A DNA stretch of 64,000 bases. It comes from an uncultured Pseudomonadota bacterium. GTDB lineage: Bacteria; Pseudomonadota; Gammaproteobacteria; Burkholderiales; SG8-39. Below are positions 32,644 through 44,758 of this stretch, one piece after another; within the stretch, counting starts at the first letter, position 1, and each line of letters begins with the position of its first letter. Both the position numbers and the translations under genes were made by a program. The DNA lies in NCBI GenBank assembly GCA_903834835.1, contig CAILKO010000066.1:1-64000 (forward strand). Reading direction: 5' to 3'. Below the pieces are notes generated by a model. That model was not told the origin of the DNA and made no database searches. It saw only the letters and a list, made by a program, of their open reading frames with translations.

Positions 32644-33489
32644 GTGTCAGTCGCTACTTCAATCTCGCACTACGAAAATTTCCCGGTTGCATCGATTCTC
32701 CTGCCGCGGGAACTGCGTGTGCCGATCGCCCACATCTACCACTTTGCGCGCAGCGCCGACGACTTTGCCGACGAGGGCGATGCGCCCGCCGCGGCACGCC
32801 TTTCTGCGCTCGACGAGTATCGGACGGAACTCGACCGCATCGAGCGCGGGGCTGCGACCGAAGCCCCGCTCTTTCGCGCGCTCGGTGAAACGATCCGCAC
32901 CTACGGGCTGCCCCTGCAGCTGTTTCGCGACCTGCTGGACGCATTTTCCCAGGATGTTGTGAAGCAGCGCTACGCGAGCTTCTCAGAACTGCTCGACTAC
33001 AGTAGGCGCTCGGCCAACCCGGTGGGCCGGCTGCTGTTGCACCTGTTCGATGCCGCGACTCCGCGGAACCTTGACTGGTCGGACTCGATCTGCAGTGCCT
33101 TGCAGCTTGCAAACTTCTGGCAGGACATCGCTATCGACTGGCGCAAGGGGCGAATCTACCTTCCGCAGGACGAGATGGCACGCTATGCCGTAACCGAGGC
33201 TCATGTCGCAAACGGCCGCTGCGACGAAGCCTGGCGCGCGCTCCTCGCTTTCCAGACCGCGCGCACGCGGGAAATGCTTGAGTATGGCGCGCCGCTCGGC
33301 AGCGTGCTTCCCGGGCGCGTCGGACTCGAGATCCGTGTGTCGGTCGCGGGCGGGCTGCGCATACTGAAGAAACTGGATGGCGCCGGCCAGGACATGTTCC
33401 GTCATCGGCCGGTGCTGCGCTGGCACGACTGGCCCCTGCTCCTCGCCGGGTCGCTTTTCCCCTCTCGCACACCGGCGGTCAGCGCATGA
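32644..33489 (+). CDS. hpnC: Hydroxysqualene synthase HpnC
   Basis: HpnC converts presqualene diphosphate to hydroxysqualene in the three-enzyme bacterial squalene route. The 281-residue all-helical protein has the aspartate motif SADDFADEG near residue 37 and the second motif NFWQDIAIDWRKGRIYLP. The start is a GTG at 32644 (MSVATSISHYENFPVAS) with only a weak ribosome-binding site. A TATACT box lies about 58 bases upstream. It is the first gene of a translationally coupled hpnCDE operon. Confidence 0.93.
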   Translation: MSVATSISHYENFPVASILLPRELRVPIAHIYHFARSADDFADEGDAPAAARLSALDEYRTELDRIERGAATEAPLFRALGETIRTYGLPLQLFRDLLDAFSQDVVKQRYASFSELLDYSRRSANPVGRLLLHLFDAATPRNLDWSDSICSALQLANFWQDIAIDWRKGRIYLPQDEMARYAVTEAHVANGRCDEAWRALLAFQTARTREMLEYGAPLGSVLPGRVGLEIRVSVAGGLRILKKLDGAGQDMFRHRPVLRWHDWPLLLAGSLFPSRTPAVSA

Positions 33490-34319
33490 CTCCCGACCAG
33501 TATTGCCAGAACAAGGCCGCCGCAAGCGGATCATCGTTCTATTACAGCTTCCTGTTCCTGCCCGAAGCGCGTCGACGCGCGATCACCGCGCTCTACGCAT
33601 TCTGCAGGGAGGTGGACGACGTCGTTGACGAGACCTCCGACTCTCAGGTCGCTGCGATGTCGCTTGCCTGGTGGCGGACCGAGGTAGGCAAGCTTTTTGA
33701 CGGCACCCCCACCCATCCCGTGACCCGTGCGCTCGAGCCCGCCCTTCAGCCCTACGGCATCACCGCCGACTACCTGAACGAGATCATCAACGGCATGGAG
33801 ATGGACCTGACGCAGTCGCGCTACCTGGACTATGCGGGTCTGGACCGATACTGCTACCGCGTCGCTGGCGTGGTGGGCGTTCTTGCTGCCGGCATATTCG
33901 GTTATTCCAACCCGCGCACGCTCGACTACGCGAAAGCGCTCGGGACCGCGTTCCAGCTCACCAACATCATCCGCGATGTCGGCGAGGATGCGCGCCGTAA
34001 CCGGGTCTACCTTCCGATGGACGAAATGAAGCGCTACGGCGTTCCGGCCGCGGACATCCTGAACGCGCGCGAAAGTGATGGTTTCCGCGCACTCATGAAG
34101 TTCCAGACTGAACGCGCGCGAGCTCACTATGCGAACGCTATGGATCTTCTTCCTGCGGAGGATCGTCGCACCCAGCGACCCGGCCTGATCATGGCCGCCA
34201 TCTACAGCAGCCTGCTCGACGAGATCGAGCGCGAGGGCTTCCGCGTGCTTACGCAACGCACGGCGCTTACGCCCGTGCGCAAACTGTGGATCGCCTGGAA
34301 AACATGGATGCGGGCCTGA
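33486..34319 (+). CDS. hpnD: Presqualene diphosphate synthase HpnD
   Basis: HpnD joins two farnesyl diphosphates to presqualene diphosphate, the first step before HpnC. The 277-residue protein has the opening YCQNKAAASGSSFYYSFLFLP, the first Asp motif CREVDDVVDE and the second, RDVGEDARRNRVYLP. It overlaps hpnC as ATGA. Length is typical for the family. Confidence 0.95.
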   Translation: MTPDQYCQNKAAASGSSFYYSFLFLPEARRRAITALYAFCREVDDVVDETSDSQVAAMSLAWWRTEVGKLFDGTPTHPVTRALEPALQPYGITADYLNEIINGMEMDLTQSRYLDYAGLDRYCYRVAGVVGVLAAGIFGYSNPRTLDYAKALGTAFQLTNIIRDVGEDARRNRVYLPMDEMKRYGVPAADILNARESDGFRALMKFQTERARAHYANAMDLLPAEDRRTQRPGLIMAAIYSSLLDEIEREGFRVLTQRTALTPVRKLWIAWKTWMRA

Positions 34320-34327
34320 GCCGCACG

Positions 34328-35566
34328 ATGCCGGCCCGTCATGTCGCAGTCGTCGGTGCGGGCTATGCCGGCATGGCTGCTGCGGTCGCCCTGGCCGATG
34401 CCGGCGTGCGCGTGAGCATTCACGAAGCCGCATCGGTCCCAGGGGGCCGCGCACGACGAGTGGAACTGCGCGGCGTTGTCCTCGACAACGGTCAGCATGT
34501 GCTGCTCGGTGCCTACCGAGTACTGCTGGGACTAATCGCAAAGGTCGGCGTCCCGTCGCAGGCCCTGCAGCGCGTTCCGCTGGAATTGCGTTACGCCGAC
34601 GGCTTTCGACTGCGCGCGCCGCCTCTGCCGGCGCCCCTGGGACTGCTCGCCGGTCTCCTTGGCGCACGCGGGCTTTCCTGGGGCGAGCGTCTGCAGGCCA
34701 CGCGCTTCATGCTTGCCATGAAACGGCAGAAATTCAGGCTCGCGCGGGACATGAGCGTCGATGCCCTGCTTGCCGCCTACCGCCAGGACGGCCGACTCGC
34801 CTCCCATCTCTGGGTTCCGCTGTGCGTGTCAGCGCTGAACACCCCGAGTGCACTCGCCTCTGCAAGAATATTTCTCGCAGTGCTGCGGGACGGTCTGGCC
34901 GGCACGCGCGCGGACAGCGATCTGATGTTTCCGCGCGTGGATCTGTCCGCGCTCTTCCCCGAGCCGGCTGCCGACTATGTGCGTGCTCGCGGTGGCGAGT
35001 TGCACCTCGATTCCCGCGTGCAGGATCTCGCCGCGCTGCGGAACAGGCATGATGCCGTGATCGTCGCTACAGCCCCGCAGCACGTCAAGACGCTGTTGCC
35101 GGAATACGAACCTGGCTATGCCTATCAGCCGATTGTTACCTGCTACCTGCAGTACGCGACGAAGGTCGCACTGCCACTCCCCATGCTCGGCATTGCCGGG
35201 GCGACCGTACAGTGGGTGTTCGACCGTGGCGCCCTGTTGGGTGCGCACGGACAGCTGGCCTGCGTGATCAGTGCCGAGGGCCGTCATCAGGCGCTCGATC
35301 ATGAATCGCTTGCAGCGGCCTGCCACCTCGAACTCGCGCGCGCGCTACCCGGGCTGCCTGCACCGCTGTGGAATCGCGTGATTGCCGAAAAACGCGCAAC
35401 GATCCGGGTCGACCCGGACCTGCCCCGCGTCGACGAGAGTGCCCCGGGGCCGGGCATCGTCCTCGCAGGAGACTACCTCGATCCCGATTACCCCCCCACG
35501 CTGGAGGCTGCCGTGCGCAGCGGCCTGCGGGCAGCCGGCCTCGTCCTTGCGCGAGGCGCACGGTAA
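34328..35566 (+). CDS. hpnE: Squalene-forming FAD amine-oxidase-like protein HpnE
   Basis: HpnE reduces hydroxysqualene to squalene and completes the pathway. The 412-residue protein has the FAD-binding start HVAVVGAGYAGMAAAVALADAG, then GGRARR, and the C-terminal FAD block VLAGDYLDPDYPPTLEAAVRSG. The start is uncertain: ATG at 34328 gives the family N-terminus, while ATG 34304 or GTG 34286 would overlap hpnD. No squalene-hopene cyclase is in the window, so hopanoid formation must be completed by genes elsewhere. Confidence 0.92.
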   Translation: MPARHVAVVGAGYAGMAAAVALADAGVRVSIHEAASVPGGRARRVELRGVVLDNGQHVLLGAYRVLLGLIAKVGVPSQALQRVPLELRYADGFRLRAPPLPAPLGLLAGLLGARGLSWGERLQATRFMLAMKRQKFRLARDMSVDALLAAYRQDGRLASHLWVPLCVSALNTPSALASARIFLAVLRDGLAGTRADSDLMFPRVDLSALFPEPAADYVRARGGELHLDSRVQDLAALRNRHDAVIVATAPQHVKTLLPEYEPGYAYQPIVTCYLQYATKVALPLPMLGIAGATVQWVFDRGALLGAHGQLACVISAEGRHQALDHESLAAACHLELARALPGLPAPLWNRVIAEKRATIRVDPDLPRVDESAPGPGIVLAGDYLDPDYPPTLEAAVRSGLRAAGLVLARGAR

Positions 35567-36284: not shown

Positions 36285-36869
36285 ATGACCAAAACCCGTC
36301 TAGAGGCTTTCAGTGACGGCGTAATCGCGATAATCATCACGATCATGGTGCTCGAAATGAAGGCACCGCACGAGCCGACACTCGCCGGCCTCGCGCCGCT
36401 CGCACCGGTGTTCGTAAGCTACGTGCTGAGTTTTGTCTACGTCGCGATCTACTGGAACAACCACCATCACCTGCTCCACGCGGCGCAGCACGTGAGCGGG
36501 CCGATCCTGTGGGCCAATACGCTGCTGCTGTTCTGGCTCTCCCTGATTCCCTTCGTCACCGCATGGATGGGCGAGAACCACTTCGCCACGATCCCCGTCG
36601 CGCTTTACGGCCTCGTTCTGCTATGCGCGGCAAGCTCCTACTACCTGCTAGTCCAATCCCTGCTCGCCCACCACGGCAAGGACTCTACGCTCGCGCGCGC
36701 CATCGGATCCGATCTGAAGGGCAAGCTCTCCTTGCTGATCTATCTGGTAGCGATTGCTGTGGCGCTGATACATCCCTGGGTGGCGGGAGGGCTGTACGCG
36801 CTGGTCGCACTCATCTGGTTGATACCTGATCGCCGGATCGAAAAAGCACTTTCCGACGCGAAGCAGTGA
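36285..36869 (+). CDS. TMEM175-type potassium channel protein
   Basis: This 194-residue membrane protein belongs to the TMEM175 (DUF1211) family, whose bacterial members form tetrameric K+ channels with six helices. The hallmark is the first helix RLEAFSDGVIAIIITIMVLE with FSDG at residue 9. Further helices are visible (VFVSYVLSFVYVAIYW, ILWANTLLLFWLSLIPFVTAW, LIYLVAIAVALI). The WNNHHHLLHAAQHV loop after helix 2 is typical. The start is the ATG at 36285; the track start at 36123 adds no family sequence. Confidence 0.88.
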   Translation: MTKTRLEAFSDGVIAIIITIMVLEMKAPHEPTLAGLAPLAPVFVSYVLSFVYVAIYWNNHHHLLHAAQHVSGPILWANTLLLFWLSLIPFVTAWMGENHFATIPVALYGLVLLCAASSYYLLVQSLLAHHGKDSTLARAIGSDLKGKLSLLIYLVAIAVALIHPWVAGGLYALVALIWLIPDRRIEKALSDAKQ

Positions 36870-37912: not shown

Positions 37913-39067
37913 CTAGAACGAACGCGGCATCTTGAGGATGTGCTCTCCAACGTAGGAAAGGATCAGGTTGGTAGAGATCGGAGCCACCTGGTAGAGACGC
38001 GTCTCCCGGAACTTGCGCTCCACGTCGTACTCCGCCGCAAAGCCGAATCCGCCGTGGAACTGGAGACAGGCGTTCGCCGCTTCCCAGGACGCATCCGCCG
38101 CGAGCAGCTTGGCCATGTTCGCCTCCGCGCCGCAGGGCTGGTTGGCGTCATACAGCGCGCAGGCCTTGAAACGCATCAGGTTGGCGGCCTCGACATTCAC
38201 ATAGGCGCGCGCGATCGGGAACTGCACGCCCTGGTTCTGGCCGATCGGACGACCAAAGACCACCCGCTCGGTCGCGTACTTGCTTACCTTGTCTATGAAC
38301 CAGTAGCCGTCTCCGATGCATTCGGCCGCGATCAGCGTGCGCTCCGCATTCAATCCGTCCAGGATGTAACGGAACCCCTTGCCTTCCTCACCGATCAGGT
38401 TCTCTTCGGGAATTTCAAGGTTGTCGAAGAAGAGCTCGTTGGTTTCGTGATTCACCATGTTGGTGATCGGACGCACCGTCAGTCCCTTGCCGACCGATTG
38501 CTTGAGATCCACCAGAAATGTCGACAGACCGTCGGATTTTTTCTTTACTTCCGATACCGGTGTCGTACGCGCCAGCAGGATCATGAGGTCCGAGTGCTGA
38601 ACGCGGGAGGTCCACACTTTCTGACCATTCACCACATACCGGTCGCCCTGCTTCACGGCCGTCGTCTTCAGCTTGGTCGTATCCGTGCCTGTCGTGGGCT
38701 CGGTAACCGCCATCGACTGCAGCCGCAACTCGCCGGCGGCGATCTTCGGCAGATAGCGCTTCTTCTGCGCCTCGGAGCCGTTGCGCAGCAAGGTCCCCAT
38801 GTTGTACATCTGTCCATGGCAGGCTCCGGAGTTGCCCCCGGAACGGTTGATCTCTTCCATGATGACCGAGGCTTCCGTGAGACCGAGTCCGGAGCCGCCG
38901 TATTCCTGGGGAATGAGCGCGGCCATCCAGCCTGCCTTGGTCAGCGCTTCGACGAATGCCTCAGGGTAGGCGCGTGCCTCGTCCACCTTGCGGAAGTATT
39001 CAGACGGGAACTCTGCACACAGCGCGCGCACGGCGTCCCGGATTTCATGATGATCAGTATTGTTCAC
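37913..39067 (-). CDS. Acyl-CoA dehydrogenase
   Basis: This 384-residue FAD enzyme desaturates an acyl-CoA at the alpha-beta position. Family blocks are MAVTEPTTGTDTTKL, VVNGQKVWTSR, ERVVFGRPIGQNQGVQFPIA and LQFHGGFGFAAEYDVER. The usual C-terminal catalytic glutamate (YEGT) is absent; the sequence there is YQVAPISTN. A glutamate is present at Glu242 (LNAERTLIA), where isovaleryl- and long-chain enzymes carry theirs. The GTG start at 39067 follows GAGGG; the longer track ORF is discarded. It is divergent from the RraA genes and probably acts in the same pathway. Confidence 0.92.
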   Translation of the reverse strand: MNNTDHHEIRDAVRALCAEFPSEYFRKVDEARAYPEAFVEALTKAGWMAALIPQEYGGSGLGLTEASVIMEEINRSGGNSGACHGQMYNMGTLLRNGSEAQKKRYLPKIAAGELRLQSMAVTEPTTGTDTTKLKTTAVKQGDRYVVNGQKVWTSRVQHSDLMILLARTTPVSEVKKKSDGLSTFLVDLKQSVGKGLTVRPITNMVNHETNELFFDNLEIPEENLIGEEGKGFRYILDGLNAERTLIAAECIGDGYWFIDKVSKYATERVVFGRPIGQNQGVQFPIARAYVNVEAANLMRFKACALYDANQPCGAEANMAKLLAADASWEAANACLQFHGGFGFAAEYDVERKFRETRLYQVAPISTNLILSYVGEHILKMPRSF

Positions 39068-39242: not shown

Positions 39243-39917
39243 ATGACCCAGGAAAATAATGCATCGTACGTGCAGCGGCTCAGACGGCTGGATTGCTGCG
39301 CCGTCTCCGATGCGCTCGACAGCCTCAAGCTGCAAGGCGTCGTGCTCGGACTGCCGCAGCGATCCGGCGCCGGCAGGATCGCGGGTTGCGTCGTAACGGT
39401 AAAGATGGGGACCGGCGCTCCGCCGCCCGGGCCCGTTCGCCATCTCGGGAGCACCGCAATCGAGCAGAGCGGCCCGGACACGGTAATCGTCTGCGAACAG
39501 CGCACCGGCGTCGACGCAGCCTGCTGGGGCGGACTTCTGTCGCTGGGAGCGAAGGTTCGCAATGTCGCCGGCATCATTGCGGACGGCCCGGTCCGCGATA
39601 TCGATGAGGCGATCGCCTACGGCCTGCCAGTCTTCGCGCGCTCCCTGCTGCCTCTCACGGCGCGCGGCCGGATAGTTGAGAAAGGCACGAACGTTCCCGT
39701 CACGATCGGCTCGATTGAAGTGAATCCTGGCGACTTCGTGATCGCCGACGGCAGCGGCGTGGTATTCATTGCTGCTGCAGACATCGAAAAGGTGCTCGAC
39801 GCTGCCGAAAAACTCGTCGGCAAAGAAGCTGCCATGGCCAAAGCCATACTGGCAGGAACGCCCATCAGCAAGGTCATGGGCGGCGACTACGAAACCATGC
39901 TGAAAGGAAAATCATGA
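39243..39917 (+). CDS. RraA-type aldolase family protein, paralogue A
   Basis: This 224-residue protein belongs to the RraA family, which includes 4-hydroxy-4-methyl-2-oxoglutarate aldolases and the E. coli RNase E inhibitor. The aldolase active-site pair is present as Arg118-Asp119 in IIADGPVRD. The later block IGSIEVNPGDFVIADGSGVVFI is typical. GGAGG precedes the ATG at 39243; the track start at 39060 is too early. It is the first of three adjacent paralogues and overlaps the second as ATGA. An aldolase or decarboxylase role on a 2-oxo acid is inferred. Confidence 0.88.
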   Translation: MTQENNASYVQRLRRLDCCAVSDALDSLKLQGVVLGLPQRSGAGRIAGCVVTVKMGTGAPPPGPVRHLGSTAIEQSGPDTVIVCEQRTGVDAACWGGLLSLGAKVRNVAGIIADGPVRDIDEAIAYGLPVFARSLLPLTARGRIVEKGTNVPVTIGSIEVNPGDFVIADGSGVVFIAAADIEKVLDAAEKLVGKEAAMAKAILAGTPISKVMGGDYETMLKGKS

Positions 39918-40576
39918 TCAAGGGAACACCCGACGCAAACGTAGCGCGGGCCGCGAAGCTCGATACAGCATCGCTCAGCGATGCCATGGACAAGCTGGGC
40001 GTCGTGGGACAGTGCTACAGGATCGGCCCCCGCGTGCCCAGCTTCCGCATGGCCGGACGTGCCTTCACGGTGCTCTACGGCCCCGCCGCCACGCCGCCGG
40101 GCACCGTGGGCGATTTCATCGACGACGTACCACCAGGCCATGTGATCGTCCTCGACAACGGCGGGCGCGACAACGCGACGGTCTGGGGCGACATCCTGAC
40201 CGAGGTGGCTCACCGTCGCGGCATCGCCGGCACCGTCATCGACGGAATCTGCCGCGACGTCGCGCTTTGCACCGAACTCGGCTATCCCGTTTACTCCCGC
40301 GGCCACTGGATGCGCACCGGCAAGGACCGCGTCCAGGTTGAAGCCACCAACGTAACCGTGAATATCGGCGATGCGCGCGTATCCCCGGGAGACATCATGC
40401 GCGGCGACGCCGACGGCGTCGTCGTCCTTCCGCGCGAACATGAAGACCGCATACTCGAGACTGCCGAGACCATCCAGGAGGCTGAGAACGGCATTCGTCG
40501 TGCGGTGCGCGGCGGCATGCGGCTCGACGAGGCGCGCAAGAGCCATGGTTACCACAAACTCCAGAGCAAGAGCTGA
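39914..40576 (+). CDS. RraA-type aldolase family protein, paralogue B
   Basis: This second RraA-family protein has 220 residues. It keeps the active-site signature as Arg114-Asp115 in VIDGICRD and the block ARVSPGDIMRGDADGVVVLP. It differs from paralogue A in most positions, so the duplication is old. ATGA overlap with A and a 2-base gap to C show one transcript. The three may form a mixed hexamer, or each may handle a different intermediate; neither can be read from sequence. Confidence 0.88.
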   Translation: MIKGTPDANVARAAKLDTASLSDAMDKLGVVGQCYRIGPRVPSFRMAGRAFTVLYGPAATPPGTVGDFIDDVPPGHVIVLDNGGRDNATVWGDILTEVAHRRGIAGTVIDGICRDVALCTELGYPVYSRGHWMRTGKDRVQVEATNVTVNIGDARVSPGDIMRGDADGVVVLPREHEDRILETAETIQEAENGIRRAVRGGMRLDEARKSHGYHKLQSKS

Positions 40577-40578
40577 GC

Positions 40579-41259
40579 ATGGCGATCGACCAGTTCGACC
40601 CTGAGAGCACCACCCGGCGGGACATCGAACGGGTGTCGCCGGAGCTTGTCGCAGCCGCAGCGAAACTTCCGTCGTCGACGCTGCACGAGGCCGCAGGCAA
40701 GATCGGCGTGATCGATCACGCGATCAAGCCGGTCGCCTCGTCCTTTCGCATCGCGGGCCCGGCGGTCACGGTGCACTCGCCCGCCGGCGACAATCTCTGG
40801 ATACACCGCGCGATCTACGCGGCAAAGCCGGGCGATGTCCTTGTGGTTTACGTGAACGACAAGTACGACAACGGCTACTGGGGCGAAATCATGTCGACCG
40901 CCGCGCGGCAGCGCGGACTTGCCGGCATGGTCATCGACGGCTGCGTTCGGGACGGCGAATTGCTGGAGGGCATCGGCTTTCCGATCTTCTCTCGCGGTCT
41001 TTGCATCCGCGGGACCGGCAAGGATTTCGGCGCGCGCGGCTGGATCAACGCGCCCGTCCGCATTGGCGATGTCACCGTCGCACCGGGCGACCTCATCGTT
41101 GGCGACACCGACGGCGTCGTCGCGATTCCGCGCGCCCAGGCAGCAACTGCGGTCGAAGCGGCGAAGAAGCGCGAGGCGCACGAACAGGAAATCATGCGCC
41201 GCATTCGCGCCGGTGAATCCACGATCGACATCTACGGCTGGCAGGTTCCGAAACGCTGA
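40579..41259 (+). CDS. RraA-type aldolase family protein, paralogue C
   Basis: This third RraA-family protein has 226 residues. The active-site signature is Arg124-Asp125 in VIDGCVRD, and TVAPGDLIVGDTDGVVAIP follows. The C-terminal region (AAKKREAHEQEIMRRIRAGESTIDIYGW) resembles that of 4-carboxy-4-hydroxy-2-oxoadipate aldolases in spirit, but I cannot assign the substrate. It is followed by the crotonase gene 22 bases downstream. Confidence 0.88.
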   Translation: MAIDQFDPESTTRRDIERVSPELVAAAAKLPSSTLHEAAGKIGVIDHAIKPVASSFRIAGPAVTVHSPAGDNLWIHRAIYAAKPGDVLVVYVNDKYDNGYWGEIMSTAARQRGLAGMVIDGCVRDGELLEGIGFPIFSRGLCIRGTGKDFGARGWINAPVRIGDVTVAPGDLIVGDTDGVVAIPRAQAATAVEAAKKREAHEQEIMRRIRAGESTIDIYGWQVPKR

Positions 41260-41281: not shown

Positions 41282-42061
41282 ATGATTTCCGCTATCCCCG
41301 ACGACGCGCCGGACGGACCGCCGCTGCTGCAGTTTGAAGGGACGCGCGCGGTCATTACCCTGAACCGTCCGCGGGTCCACAACCGGCTTGAGCTCGACGA
41401 TCTGCCGAAGCTGGGGGCCCTCCTGCAGCGGGTGGAGCAGGATCCGGACGCGCGCGTCCTGCTGCTTACCGGCCGCGGCCAGACTTTCGGTTCCGGCTTC
41501 GATCTGAATGCCCTGGGCGATACGACGGAACTTGATCAATTTGCCGCGCTCGGAGACGCGATCGAGAACCTTCGCATCCCGAGCGTGTGCTCGCTGAACG
41601 GACCGGTCTACGGCGGCGCGACCGACCTCGCGCTTGCCTGCGACTTCCGTATCGGTCTGCCCGGCTGCCGCACCTTCGTGCCCGTGGCCCGGCTTGGCAT
41701 ACAGTTCTACGGAAGCGGCCTGCGTCGCTTCGCAGAGCGGCTCGGCCTGCACGCCGCCAAGAAACTGCTGCTTGCCGGCGCCACCCTGGAGGAAGCCGAA
41801 CTGCGCCGCATCGGCTTCCTGGACGAAGTGGTCGAGCCGACCGCCCTCGCCGCGCGCAGCGTGATGCTGTGCGACCAGCTCGCTGCCAACGCGCCGCTTG
41901 CTGTTCAAGGCATGAAGCGCTGTCTCGATCGCGTGGCGCGGGGCCAGTTCGATGCGAATGCGGCCCGCGCCGACATGCTTGCGTGCCTTTCGAGCGAGGA
42001 CTTCCAGGAAGGACTTGCTGCCCTGCGGGCACGGCGCGCACCGGTGTTCCGCGGGCGCTGA
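41282..42061 (+). CDS. Enoyl-CoA hydratase/isomerase family protein
   Basis: This 259-residue crotonase-fold protein has ITLNRPRVHNRLELDDL, the oxyanion-hole region GFDLNALG and VYGGATDLALACDFRI. The usual catalytic glutamates are not obvious: the segment after DFRIG reads VPVARLGIQFYGSGL, where hydratases have FG.PE...G. It may be an isomerase, hydrolase or lyase rather than a hydratase. The ATG at 41282 follows the aldolase operon closely. It converges with amidohydrolase 2. Confidence 0.82.
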   Translation: MISAIPDDAPDGPPLLQFEGTRAVITLNRPRVHNRLELDDLPKLGALLQRVEQDPDARVLLLTGRGQTFGSGFDLNALGDTTELDQFAALGDAIENLRIPSVCSLNGPVYGGATDLALACDFRIGLPGCRTFVPVARLGIQFYGSGLRRFAERLGLHAAKKLLLAGATLEEAELRRIGFLDEVVEPTALAARSVMLCDQLAANAPLAVQGMKRCLDRVARGQFDANAARADMLACLSSEDFQEGLAALRARRAPVFRGR

Positions 42062-42069
42062 CCCCTGTC

Positions 42070-43530
42070 TCAGCCGCGCCTGGTGGCGATCGCGGCGCAG
42101 TCTTTCTCCACCACCGTGCCCTTGAAGAAATCCGGGTTCATCGCGGTGTACATTTCGGCGACGTTGGTGAACGTGAACTTGCGGAAGTCCTCCGGGGTGA
42201 TCATCCCGTCCTCGACCATCTCGTAGGTTTCGGTCACGACCCTAGCCATCACGGGCACATCCCAGTGTCCCAGATCGGAGCCGAACATCGCCTTCAGCTG
42301 CCGGCCGAAGTGATTGAAGCGCCGGTCAAAAGCAAGCGCCGTGAGCTTGTCCTCTCCCTCCGCGCCGAAATAGAAGTTTTCGACGAACAGATCCGCCGCC
42401 TCGGCAGGCGTGCGTGCCCCGAGCTTCGCGAAATCGTCAATCGTGTGCTCGTTCTCCGGCGGCTGGGCCATATAACCCTCGCCCTTGCGGATCAGCTCCG
42501 CCTTCGGACCGAGACGCTCTCCGCCGTATTTCGCGAAGTACGCCGCCATCTGGTTGCGATCGGTCAGCGCGGGGTCGAGCGTGCGCCTCAAGGCACGCAC
42601 GTTGCGTTTCTCGAATCGCTCGATCAGCGCGTTATAGATCATGCTGCCGAAGCCGGCACCGCCTTCGAGAAAGCCGAATTTGAGCTTCGGAAAGCGCGCC
42701 GTCACGCCACCGAGGTAAAGCGCGCGGCACACCATGTCGTTGCCCGCCGCAAAGTGGCCGGCATGATTGAACGAATAGTTCGAAATCGACTGGTGCGTGG
42801 CGCTGCCCCCGAACATGCCTACGTGCGAAGTTGGCGCCACCCCGAGGTCGACGCACTTCTGCCATACCGGGTCGTAGTCGTATTCGCTGTCCAGCGTTAG
42901 GTAATCGAGATATGTCGCGTACGGCGCCCATTGCGGAGCCTCGCGTGCCACCTTCGGCAGGGGGCGACGCTGATAGCCCGCGACAGTGATCGCCTTCATG
43001 CCGAGCACCTTCACCGCATAGTCGATTTCCTCGAGCGCTTCCTGCGGTGTGTAGGTCGGTATCACTGCGGCCGGCGTGATCCGGTCTGCATGCCCCTTCA
43101 GAACTTCCCAGTTCAGCTTGTTTACCGCTCGGCACAGGGCGCGCCGCATTTCCGTTTCGGGGAACGTGATGAAATTCAGCCCGTAGGTCGTGTAGGCCAG
43201 CATGAAATCGATGCCGAGCTCGTCCAGCCGCTCACGCAACAGGTTCGGCAGCATGGCGGTGGCGCGATCGAGAGTGTTCGCCGGCACGGCCCAGAACGAC
43301 GGACGGCACATGCGCACATCCTCCCGCGTGGCGTGATCGGCGTGATACCAGCGGTGAAGCGCCAGCTCCTTCAGCGACTTCTCGAACCTGCCCGCGATAT
43401 CCGGACCCGCAACTTCCTTCAGCACATCGAGCAGCGCGAACTCGCTTTCCACGATATGACCATCCGCGTCGATGATCGGATGCCCGAGCTTGGCGCGTAC
43501 GTCCGCTCCCGTGAGTTCCTTGCCGCTCAT
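42070..43530 (-). CDS. Amidohydrolase family protein (Amidohydro_2), paralogue 2
   Basis: This 486-residue amidohydrolase is clearly related to the one at 14865: shared blocks include PIIDADGHIVE, DRATAMLPNLLRERLDELG, YTPQEALEEIDYAV and YDYDPVWQKC. The C-terminal SDLGHWDVPVMARV also matches. By family it is a metal-dependent hydrolase or decarboxylase of an organic acid. AAGGAGG precedes the ATG at 43530, and its ATG overlaps the oxidase stop as ATGA, so the two are coupled. Its partners here are an FMN oxidase and, converging, RraA aldolases. Confidence 0.86.
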   Translation of the reverse strand: MSGKELTGADVRAKLGHPIIDADGHIVESEFALLDVLKEVAGPDIAGRFEKSLKELALHRWYHADHATREDVRMCRPSFWAVPANTLDRATAMLPNLLRERLDELGIDFMLAYTTYGLNFITFPETEMRRALCRAVNKLNWEVLKGHADRITPAAVIPTYTPQEALEEIDYAVKVLGMKAITVAGYQRRPLPKVAREAPQWAPYATYLDYLTLDSEYDYDPVWQKCVDLGVAPTSHVGMFGGSATHQSISNYSFNHAGHFAAGNDMVCRALYLGGVTARFPKLKFGFLEGGAGFGSMIYNALIERFEKRNVRALRRTLDPALTDRNQMAAYFAKYGGERLGPKAELIRKGEGYMAQPPENEHTIDDFAKLGARTPAEAADLFVENFYFGAEGEDKLTALAFDRRFNHFGRQLKAMFGSDLGHWDVPVMARVVTETYEMVEDGMITPEDFRKFTFTNVAEMYTAMNPDFFKGTVVEKDCAAIATRRG

Positions 43531-44738
43531 TTCCGTTCCTCCTTGCGCAACGGTTGCACAGCTGGCATCGATGCCGCCGTGATCCGTCCGTCCTTCCAAA
43601 GATTTTCATGCCCCAGATCGCGCAGGTCTACGCATCCTAGCTGACGCTGATTCGCATCGACTTCGTCACGCAGTATCGCAATCGCGCGCTCGACCCCGGC
43701 CTGGCCTCCGGCTGCCAGGCCGTAGAGCGTGGCGCGGCCCACGAACGTGAAGCGCGCCCCGAGCGCCAGCGCCACGAGCATGTCCGCACCGCGCCGCAGG
43801 CCGCTGTCCAGCATGACCGTCAGACGATCGCCTGCTGCGGCGACGATCGCCGGCAACACCTCGATCGTCGCGGGTGCTCGGTCGAGCTGCCTGCCGCCAT
43901 GATTGGACACGATGATCCCGTCAACCCCCAGTTCCGCCGCGCGCAGCGCATCGTCCGGATGAAGGATGCCCTTCAGGACCAGTCTCCCCGGCCATAGTCT
44001 GCGCAGGCGATCAACGTCCTCCCAGCGCGGCATGCCTGGAAGCCCGGAGTGGAAATATCGCATCACGTCCCGTGCGCCGGAGCCCGGTGGCGCGTAGCGA
44101 ACCCAGTTTTCCATCGTGGGCATGCCGCCATTCGAAAAATAGCTGTACAGCCAGGCAGGGTGCCGGAGCGCCTCGCATACGACGGAGGGTTTGAAGCTGA
44201 AGCTGCCGAACGAGAACCGGTTGCGCAGATCGCGTTCGCGGCGGCTGCGTGCCTCGGAGTCCACGGTCACAACCAGCGTATCCACTCCCGCGTCGCGCAG
44301 CCGCCGCAGGATATCCTCGTCATGCGCCCGGTGCCGGGTCATGTAGAGCTGGAACCACATGCGTCCGGACGCGGCCTGCGCACAGGCCTCGATCAAGCCA
44401 TTGCTTGCGCCTGACATTACAAAGGGCACGTCCGCGCGCGCGGCAGCCCGCGCCAACAACAGATCGGCGTCCGGACGGAACACTGCGGCACTCCCGGTCG
44501 GCGCGATGCCGAAGGGACTTGCGTACTGCCTGCCGAACAGGGTGACCGACTGGCTCGCCGCAGAGAAATCCCTCAGATAGCGCGGCAACAAGCGGTAGGC
44601 ATCAAAGGAAGCGCGATTGCGCGCAATGCCCTGCTCGTCCTCGGCACCGCCATCGATGAAATCGAACAGCATGGCCGGCAGGTAGCGCTTCGCTTCCTGA
44701 CGCAGGTCTTCGATATTCACCGCACCTGCAATCTTCAC
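43527..44738 (-). CDS. FMN-dependent alpha-hydroxy acid oxidase/dehydrogenase
   Basis: This 403-residue TIM-barrel flavoenzyme oxidises an L-2-hydroxy acid to the 2-oxo acid (family of lactate, glycolate and mandelate enzymes). Visible are MLFDFIDGGAEDE, FGIAPTG, WFQLYM, VTVDSEA, VLKGILHPDDA, the catalytic histidine in SNHGGRQLD and the FMN phosphate site SGLRRGADMLVALALGA. The track start is a TTG at 44753; I prefer GTG at 44738, preceded by GGGAG. It begins 20 bases after radA, so it may be read through from alr-radA. A product 2-oxo acid would suit the nearby RraA aldolases. Confidence 0.88.
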   Translation of the reverse strand: MKIAGAVNIEDLRQEAKRYLPAMLFDFIDGGAEDEQGIARNRASFDAYRLLPRYLRDFSAASQSVTLFGRQYASPFGIAPTGSAAVFRPDADLLLARAAARADVPFVMSGASNGLIEACAQAASGRMWFQLYMTRHRAHDEDILRRLRDAGVDTLVVTVDSEARSRRERDLRNRFSFGSFSFKPSVVCEALRHPAWLYSYFSNGGMPTMENWVRYAPPGSGARDVMRYFHSGLPGMPRWEDVDRLRRLWPGRLVLKGILHPDDALRAAELGVDGIIVSNHGGRQLDRAPATIEVLPAIVAAAGDRLTVMLDSGLRRGADMLVALALGARFTFVGRATLYGLAAGGQAGVERAIAILRDEVDANQRQLGCVDLRDLGHENLWKDGRITAASMPAVQPLRKEERK

Positions 44739-44758
44739 CGGTCTCCCTCTCAAACAGC

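Follow-up and report, generated by a model that had tools for sequence, protein, structure and literature searches.

Three genes of the RraA-like family, here called RraA1, RraA2 and RraA3, stand in tandem on the forward strand at positions 39243-41259 of the window, the 64,000-nucleotide stretch of DNA from an uncultured Pseudomonadota bacterium that was analysed (Table 1). Each gene runs through an intact frame from an ATG start to a TGA stop, the RraA1/RraA2 overlap is exactly 4 bases and the RraA2/RraA3 gap exactly 2, and these coordinates and frames agree with the tandem of three family members described in an earlier note on this DNA. The Arg-Asp pair that the same note saw in every copy is likewise present, within the motifs DGPVRD, DGICRD and DGCVRD. 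All three proteins score far above the PF03737 (RraA-like) cut-off of 24.5 bits, and the other two copies are 31% and 29% identical to RraA1. The trio accounts for three of the four PF03737 genes in the window genome (3.37 Mb in 74 contigs, 88.9% complete). The fourth (L045:13161-13736, reverse strand; G000:C25:94161-94736) encodes a protein 42% identical to RraA2 over 143 amino acids and lies near a Rieske oxygenase gene, with a LigY/LigJ-like amidohydrolase about 10 kb off, possibly marking a second, divergent aromatic cluster. A scan of the locus for promoters and terminators gave no signal above chance. Near the cassette lies a gene for a TMEM175-family potassium channel (window positions 36285-36869; PF06736, 108 bits), and at 32644-35566 three successive genes resemble, by eye, the hopanoid/squalene synthesis genes hpnC, hpnD and hpnE.

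Table 1. Positions in the window of the RraA genes, their neighbours and selected active-site codons.
Feature	Positions	Strand	Details
Acyl-CoA dehydrogenase	37913-39067	-	divergent from the trio
RraA1	39243-39917	+	224 aa; PF03737, 107 bits
RraA1 Gly97	39531..39533	+	at the metal-side Asp102 position of the P. putida aldolase
RraA1 R118-D119-I-D-E122	39594..39608	+	R and D invariant in 75/75
RraA2	39914-40576	+	220 aa; PF03737, 131 bits
RraA3	40579-41259	+	226 aa; PF03737, 147 bits
RraA3 R124-D125	40948..40953	+	R123-D124 of 3noj; invariant in 54/54
Crotonase-fold protein	41282-42061	+	259 aa; PF00378, 104 bits
Amidohydro_2 amidohydrolase	42070-43530	-	486 aa; convergent toward the trio
FMN-dependent hydroxy-acid dehydrogenase	43527-44753	-	convergent toward the trio

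The earlier note had listed the surrounding genes as likely pathway partners, and for most of them comparison with other RraA1 loci argues otherwise. No other RraA1 locus has an equivalent of the 486-residue amidohydrolase or of the FMN-dependent enzyme (listed there as a hydroxy-acid oxidase), and for the acyl-CoA dehydrogenase there are just weak, distant ones; we therefore rejected all three as pathway members, since they are not conserved across these loci. The partners that are conserved are a LigB-family dioxygenase together with either a LigY-type hydrolase or a non-canonical crotonase. Among the named neighbours in the window, only the crotonase gene is contiguous with the trio and on the same strand, starting 22 bases after RraA3. 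A syntenic orthologue, 43-49% identical, follows RraA3 in Paraburkholderia-type loci, whose order is CoA-transferase, dioxygenase, RraA1, RraA2, RraA3, crotonase, thioesterase; the window belongs to this crotonase subtype and retains just the segment from RraA1 to the crotonase. Classical enoyl-CoA hydratases have two catalytic glutamates. Both are missing in the window crotonase and its orthologues, where the alignment places Asp and Ala/Val instead (GGATD..., VPVAR...). Within the stretch scanned, crotonase-subtype loci hold no LigY-type gene, so the crotonase could replace the C-C hydrolase; it is possibly such a hydrolase, or it may catalyse another step.

In samples of its own family and class the trio looked singular. 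No second such triple was found among 98 genomes of the same family, and the matches listed for those genomes include just one other adjacent RraA pair, of a different type and with a gap of 212 bases, which excludes chance adjacency as the origin of the tandem. That pair (L131:6729-8418; G066:C9) falls outside the RraA1 and RraA2 subfamilies and lies near CoA-transferase and acyl-CoA dehydrogenase genes. In a class sample of 369 genomes, RraA1 was found in the window genome alone (E <= 1e-25). The uniqueness that these samples suggested was overturned by scans of named genomes and plasmids. Four Paraburkholderia share the ordered triple with Peristeroidobacter soli and a sphingomonad MAG, and a Comamonadaceae MAG has the RraA1-RraA2 pair. 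All three RraA genes also occur on plasmids of Polymorphobacter, Aminobacter and Rhodococcus koreensis; plasmids from Bradyrhizobium, Sphingobium and Novosphingobium (pNL1) have RraA1-RraA2. Many further loci came from profile searches that covered 399 genomes in the family to which one Paraburkholderia locus belongs, 351 in that of the sphingomonad MAG and 348 in the order of the MAG holding locus L024; with 7-8 candidates scored per genome, the numbers of loci are lower bounds. The triple is thus widespread rather than peculiar to one strain, and its patchy presence makes horizontal acquisition by the window genome most likely.

We scanned 80 loci with 7 kb flanks, plus the earlier loci, using profiles built from the first loci, and removal of sequences at least 95% identical left 75 non-redundant RraA1 loci. 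RraA2 lies directly downstream of RraA1 in 66 of these, and 46 hold the full tandem triple. A LigB-family extradiol dioxygenase (LigZ-like) is encoded in 58/75 loci, a LigY-type amidohydrolase (LigY-like C-C hydrolase) in 40/75 and a Rieske oxygenase in 35/75; 68 of the 75 have a LigZ-like and/or LigY-like gene within about 7 kb. The smallest units consist of a LigY-type hydrolase, RraA1 and RraA2 alone (L114, L115, L116 and L119), which links the pair to the LigY product. RraA1 is found without RraA2 in 8/75 loci, some of them in MAGs whose completeness is not established, and is the sole match in one MAG (G472); RraA1 can therefore probably work without RraA2. In the 51 loci holding all four genes, the identity matrices of the three RraA proteins correlate at r = 0.88-0.91, compared with 0.61-0.74 between the RraA proteins and the dioxygenase. 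By these sequence comparisons the trio moves and diverges as a unit while the upstream enzymes change, and the correlated divergence reflects shared transfer history too, not interaction alone. The constancy of the trio alongside variable dioxygenases and hydrolases is in keeping with a module whose substrate is a small intermediate shared by the breakdown of many aromatics. Some loci are visibly disturbed. In L076, RraA1 and RraA2 appear as a single ORF, which we left aside as probably due to a frameshift; frame breaks around the RraA1/RraA2 junction in this locus (G769:C9), and in the dioxygenase, RraA1 and RraA2 of L103 (G863:C43), reflect pseudogenes or sequencing errors. On plasmid p1 of Sphingobium fuliginis KK22, the annotation splits a LigY-type amidohydrolase (L029:8481-9496), located upstream of RidA-RraA1-RraA2, into two overlapping pieces, for which a frameshift is the probable cause.

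One of the surveyed loci, L122, is identified by its gene content as the cluster for DDVA (5,5'-dehydrodivanillate, a lignin biphenyl) of Sphingobium SYK-6, the lignin-dimer degrader studied in most depth. The amidohydrolase of L122 matches the solved LigY (6e6i) with 100% identity over 332 residues, and the gene order is MFS transporter, LigB-family dioxygenase, RraA1, RraA2, LigY, a large unrelated gene and a Rieske protein carrying the Pfam LigXa C-terminal domain (LigXa_C). The SYK-6 tags are SLG_07720 for ligZ, SLG_07750 for ligY and SLG_07770 for ligXa (PMC12997858). Taken together, the LigY identity, the gene order and the tags make RraA1 and RraA2 the pair of unassigned genes that separates ligZ from ligY; by numbering, they would be SLG_07730 and SLG_07740, tags of which we found no mention in the literature searched. 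In this pathway, LigY converts the meta-cleavage compound to 5-carboxyvanillate and 4-carboxy-2-hydroxypenta-2,4-dienoate (CHPD) (PMC6874591), and CHPD proceeds by way of HMG to 2 pyruvate (PMC12673573). Table 2 of the latter paper, published in 2025, gives the alkene hydration enzyme of SYK-6 as "not identified", and in Paenibacillus an unrelated hydratase (UxuA) has been proposed for the same step (PMC12673573). Pfam scans of L114 and L122 found no other hydratase candidate adjoining the pair; L122 does have an ordinary crotonase-family gene, about 5 kb upstream. Between ligY and ligXa, a 1007-codon ORF (L122:9396-12419, reverse strand) contains GDPGGGKST, a P-loop-like motif that recalls NACHT-type NTPases. 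In the genome containing L122 (G1016) there is also a second cassette at about 2.1 Mb (L107:4891-9540), with genes for a LigY-type protein, a dioxygenase, RraA1, RraA2, RraA3, a flavin reductase-like protein and a Rieske protein.

Relatives of the SYK-6 cluster contain the same kinds of gene in other orders. The window operon differs from it in having no adjoining ligZ or ligY and in possessing RraA3, which the DDVA cluster lacks, along with the crotonase. No dioxygenase or LigY-like gene adjoins the trio in the window genome: the nearest dioxygenase homologue, up to 51% identical, lies on another contig (C32), and a LigY-type gene, up to 69% identical, lies about 91 kb from the trio near the far end of the same contig (C66). 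As these homologues are unlinked and resemble those of other cassette subtypes, DDVA may not be the substrate here. A LigJ-type hydratase role for the amidohydrolase conserved in other RraA1 loci is disfavoured, the Polymorphobacter protein scoring 545 bits to LigY versus 197 to LigJ; more distant members are less clear-cut (274 versus 207). We also considered a flavonoid A-ring (fde/ifc-type) pathway, prompted by the occurrence of the genes in Paraburkholderia, Bradyrhizobium and apple-rhizosphere Rhodococcus, and set it aside because that pathway uses a glyoxalase-type dioxygenase, whereas the partner here is of the LigB family.

The earlier note had described the three copies as RraA-type aldolase paralogues; sequence and phylogeny do not support their being aldolases of one kind, and their active sites differ. 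In the numbering of the P. putida aldolase, whose study states that most family homologues have one of two metal motifs (PMC5065237; 3noj), RraA3 retains E36, N71, H75, R123, D124, G144, T145, K147, R195 and E199 in 54 of 54 sequences, the only copy with the full HMG/CHA residue set. Position 102 of RraA3 is Glu or Asp in 53 of the 54, usually Glu, where 3noj has Asp. RraA3 shares these mechanistic residues with the HMG/CHA aldolases (LigK, GalC, ProA and the P. putida F1 enzyme 3noj); it groups with 3noj (support 0.95, FastTree), its best solved relative at 135 bits, and passes the NF006731 equivalog (197 versus a cut-off of 179 bits), while falling below the narrower ligK_PcmE model (178.6 versus 304.5). 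It is accordingly predicted to be a standard HMG/CHA-type pyruvate aldolase. RraA1 and RraA2 stand outside that aldolase clade and do not reach NF006731 (75 and 94 versus 179). Both have lost the equivalents of N71, H75 and R195 and kept the metal/enolate site: D102, R123, D124, T145, K147 and E199 are invariant in 67/67 RraA2 sequences, and RraA1 has R123 and D124 in 75/75 and E199 in 72/75. Position 102 of RraA1 is Gly in 72 of 75 sequences and Glu in 3, and position 127 is Glu in 72 and Thr in 3; the metal-side acid in RraA1 seems to have changed place, with Gly97 compensated by Glu122. The metal motifs of the window proteins thus differ, reading G-X20-R-D-X2-E in RraA1 (G97, R118-D119, E122), D-X20-R-D in RraA2 (D93, R114-D115) and E-X20-R-D in RraA3 (E103, R124-D125). 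The RraA1 version matches a second family motif, G-X20-R-D-X2-E/D, reportedly described by Mazurkewich et al. in 2014.

In the FastTree phylogeny RraA1 is monophyletic with 74 orthologues (support 0.98), and the RraA1+RraA2 clade (support 0.92) contains the genome's fourth RraA and 3k4i. The 3k4i entry, an uncharacterised structure of PSPTO_3204 from Pseudomonas syringae, is the best solved relative of RraA2 (161 bits), groups with it and keeps D-X20-R-D and the K147 and E199 positions. The AlphaFold model of RraA1 (pLDDT 86.9) gives good-scoring PDB matches that all have the RraA fold; that of RraA2, built from a shallow alignment (pLDDT 62.8), was left out of the analysis. RraA1-3 match PF03737 only, and not the FAH-superfamily fold of 2-hydroxypenta-2,4-dienoate hydratases of the MhpD/BphH type, so any hydratase role would be convergent with those enzymes. 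The RraA fold itself can support (de)hydration: FlDet from Flavobacterium, a divalent cation-activated KDGR dehydratase/decarboxylase of the RraA family, is reported to eliminate water from a 2-keto-3-deoxy acid (PMC8563752). Its likeness to RraA1 and RraA2 is at the family level, and it acts in an alginate pathway as the product of a single gene rather than a pair.

From these observations we propose, as a reading with about an even chance of being right, that the trio makes up the last module in an extradiol (meta) cleavage pathway in which RraA3 is the aldolase and RraA1 and RraA2 act just before it, in ketonisation and hydration. We infer that the substrates would be carboxylated, often methoxylated, lignin-type aromatics, as in DDVA degradation. 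A Rieske O-demethylase would yield a catechol; ring opening would then fall to a LigZ-like dioxygenase, and removal of the aryl part, leaving the C6 acid CHPD, to a LigY-like hydrolase (possibly the crotonase in the window subtype). RraA1 and RraA2, jointly or in sequence, would then ketonise and hydrate CHPD to HMG, which RraA3 would split into two pyruvates. We propose ketonisation and hydration for the pair on the strength of the minimal LigY units and of the loci where no other hydratase lies beside it, and the metal-bound pyruvyl enolate chemistry of the RraA fold suits such a role. The idea in the earlier note of three catalytic-looking copies acting on related 2-oxo acids is therefore plausible in a refined form, in which the copies are not equivalent. 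More tentatively, RraA1 and RraA2 may together constitute an RraA-fold CHPD hydratase, the missing enzyme of the LigZ/LigY pathway, with a shared active site at the RraA1-RraA2 interface; given the loci with RraA1 and no RraA2, a fixed two-subunit hydratase would not be general.

Other roles for the trio deserve consideration. The copies could be three separate aldolases or decarboxylases for different 4-hydroxy-2-oxo acids or oxaloacetate, with no hydratase among them; each does keep one of the two metal motifs tied to aldolase/oxaloacetate decarboxylase activity (PMC5065237), and the module would still act late in the pathway. We think this rather unlikely, as RraA1 and RraA2 are missing the N71, H75 and R195 that are invariant in RraA3, and are kept with LigY where no RraA3 is near, though one aldolase should do. 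Alternatively, RraA1 and RraA2 could be tautomerases of the ring-fission product that work ahead of the C-C hydrolase or alongside it, leaving hydration to an unlinked enzyme. Enolate chemistry fits the RraA fold, and RidA-family proteins, possible tautomerases or deaminases, stand beside RraA1-RraA2 in 16/75 loci, suggesting that ketonisation or isomerisation may be required; yet dioxygenases and hydrolases vary around an unchanging trio, more as expected for a common late intermediate than for a variable ring-fission product, and we judge this alternative improbable.

The gene overlap, nearly fixed order and strongly correlated divergence of the trio would also suit a mixed oligomer: an RraA3-based aldolase with RraA1 and/or RraA2 in structural or regulatory roles. 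Against this stand 12 LigY-containing loci with RraA1 and RraA2 and no local RraA3, the genomes with RraA1 alone, and the retention of catalytic residues in every copy, which together make such an arrangement very unlikely. The wider suggestion of a mixed oligomer in the earlier note may still hold for RraA1 and RraA2, which are nearly always found together, although RraA1 stands without RraA2 in 8/75 loci. We attach practically no weight to a role as RNase E regulators, the true RraA function: the fold is shared, but all three proteins score far under the cut-off of the RNase E-regulator equivalog NF006875 (43, 50 and 59 versus 136), so that no copy groups with these non-catalytic proteins, and they are about 60 residues longer and encoded in a catabolic operon setting.

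If RraA1 and RraA2 do act as proposed, they would provide a candidate enzyme for hydration of the C6 fragment in DDVA-type pathways, located in the model strain's own operon, and would extend to hydratases a fold associated chiefly with aldolases and RNase E regulators. The RraA1-RraA2 pair may serve as a genomic marker for uncharacterised meta-cleavage pathways in many bacteria. An odd-looking local triplet thus points to a broadly conserved pair of genes within a lignin pathway that has been studied closely.
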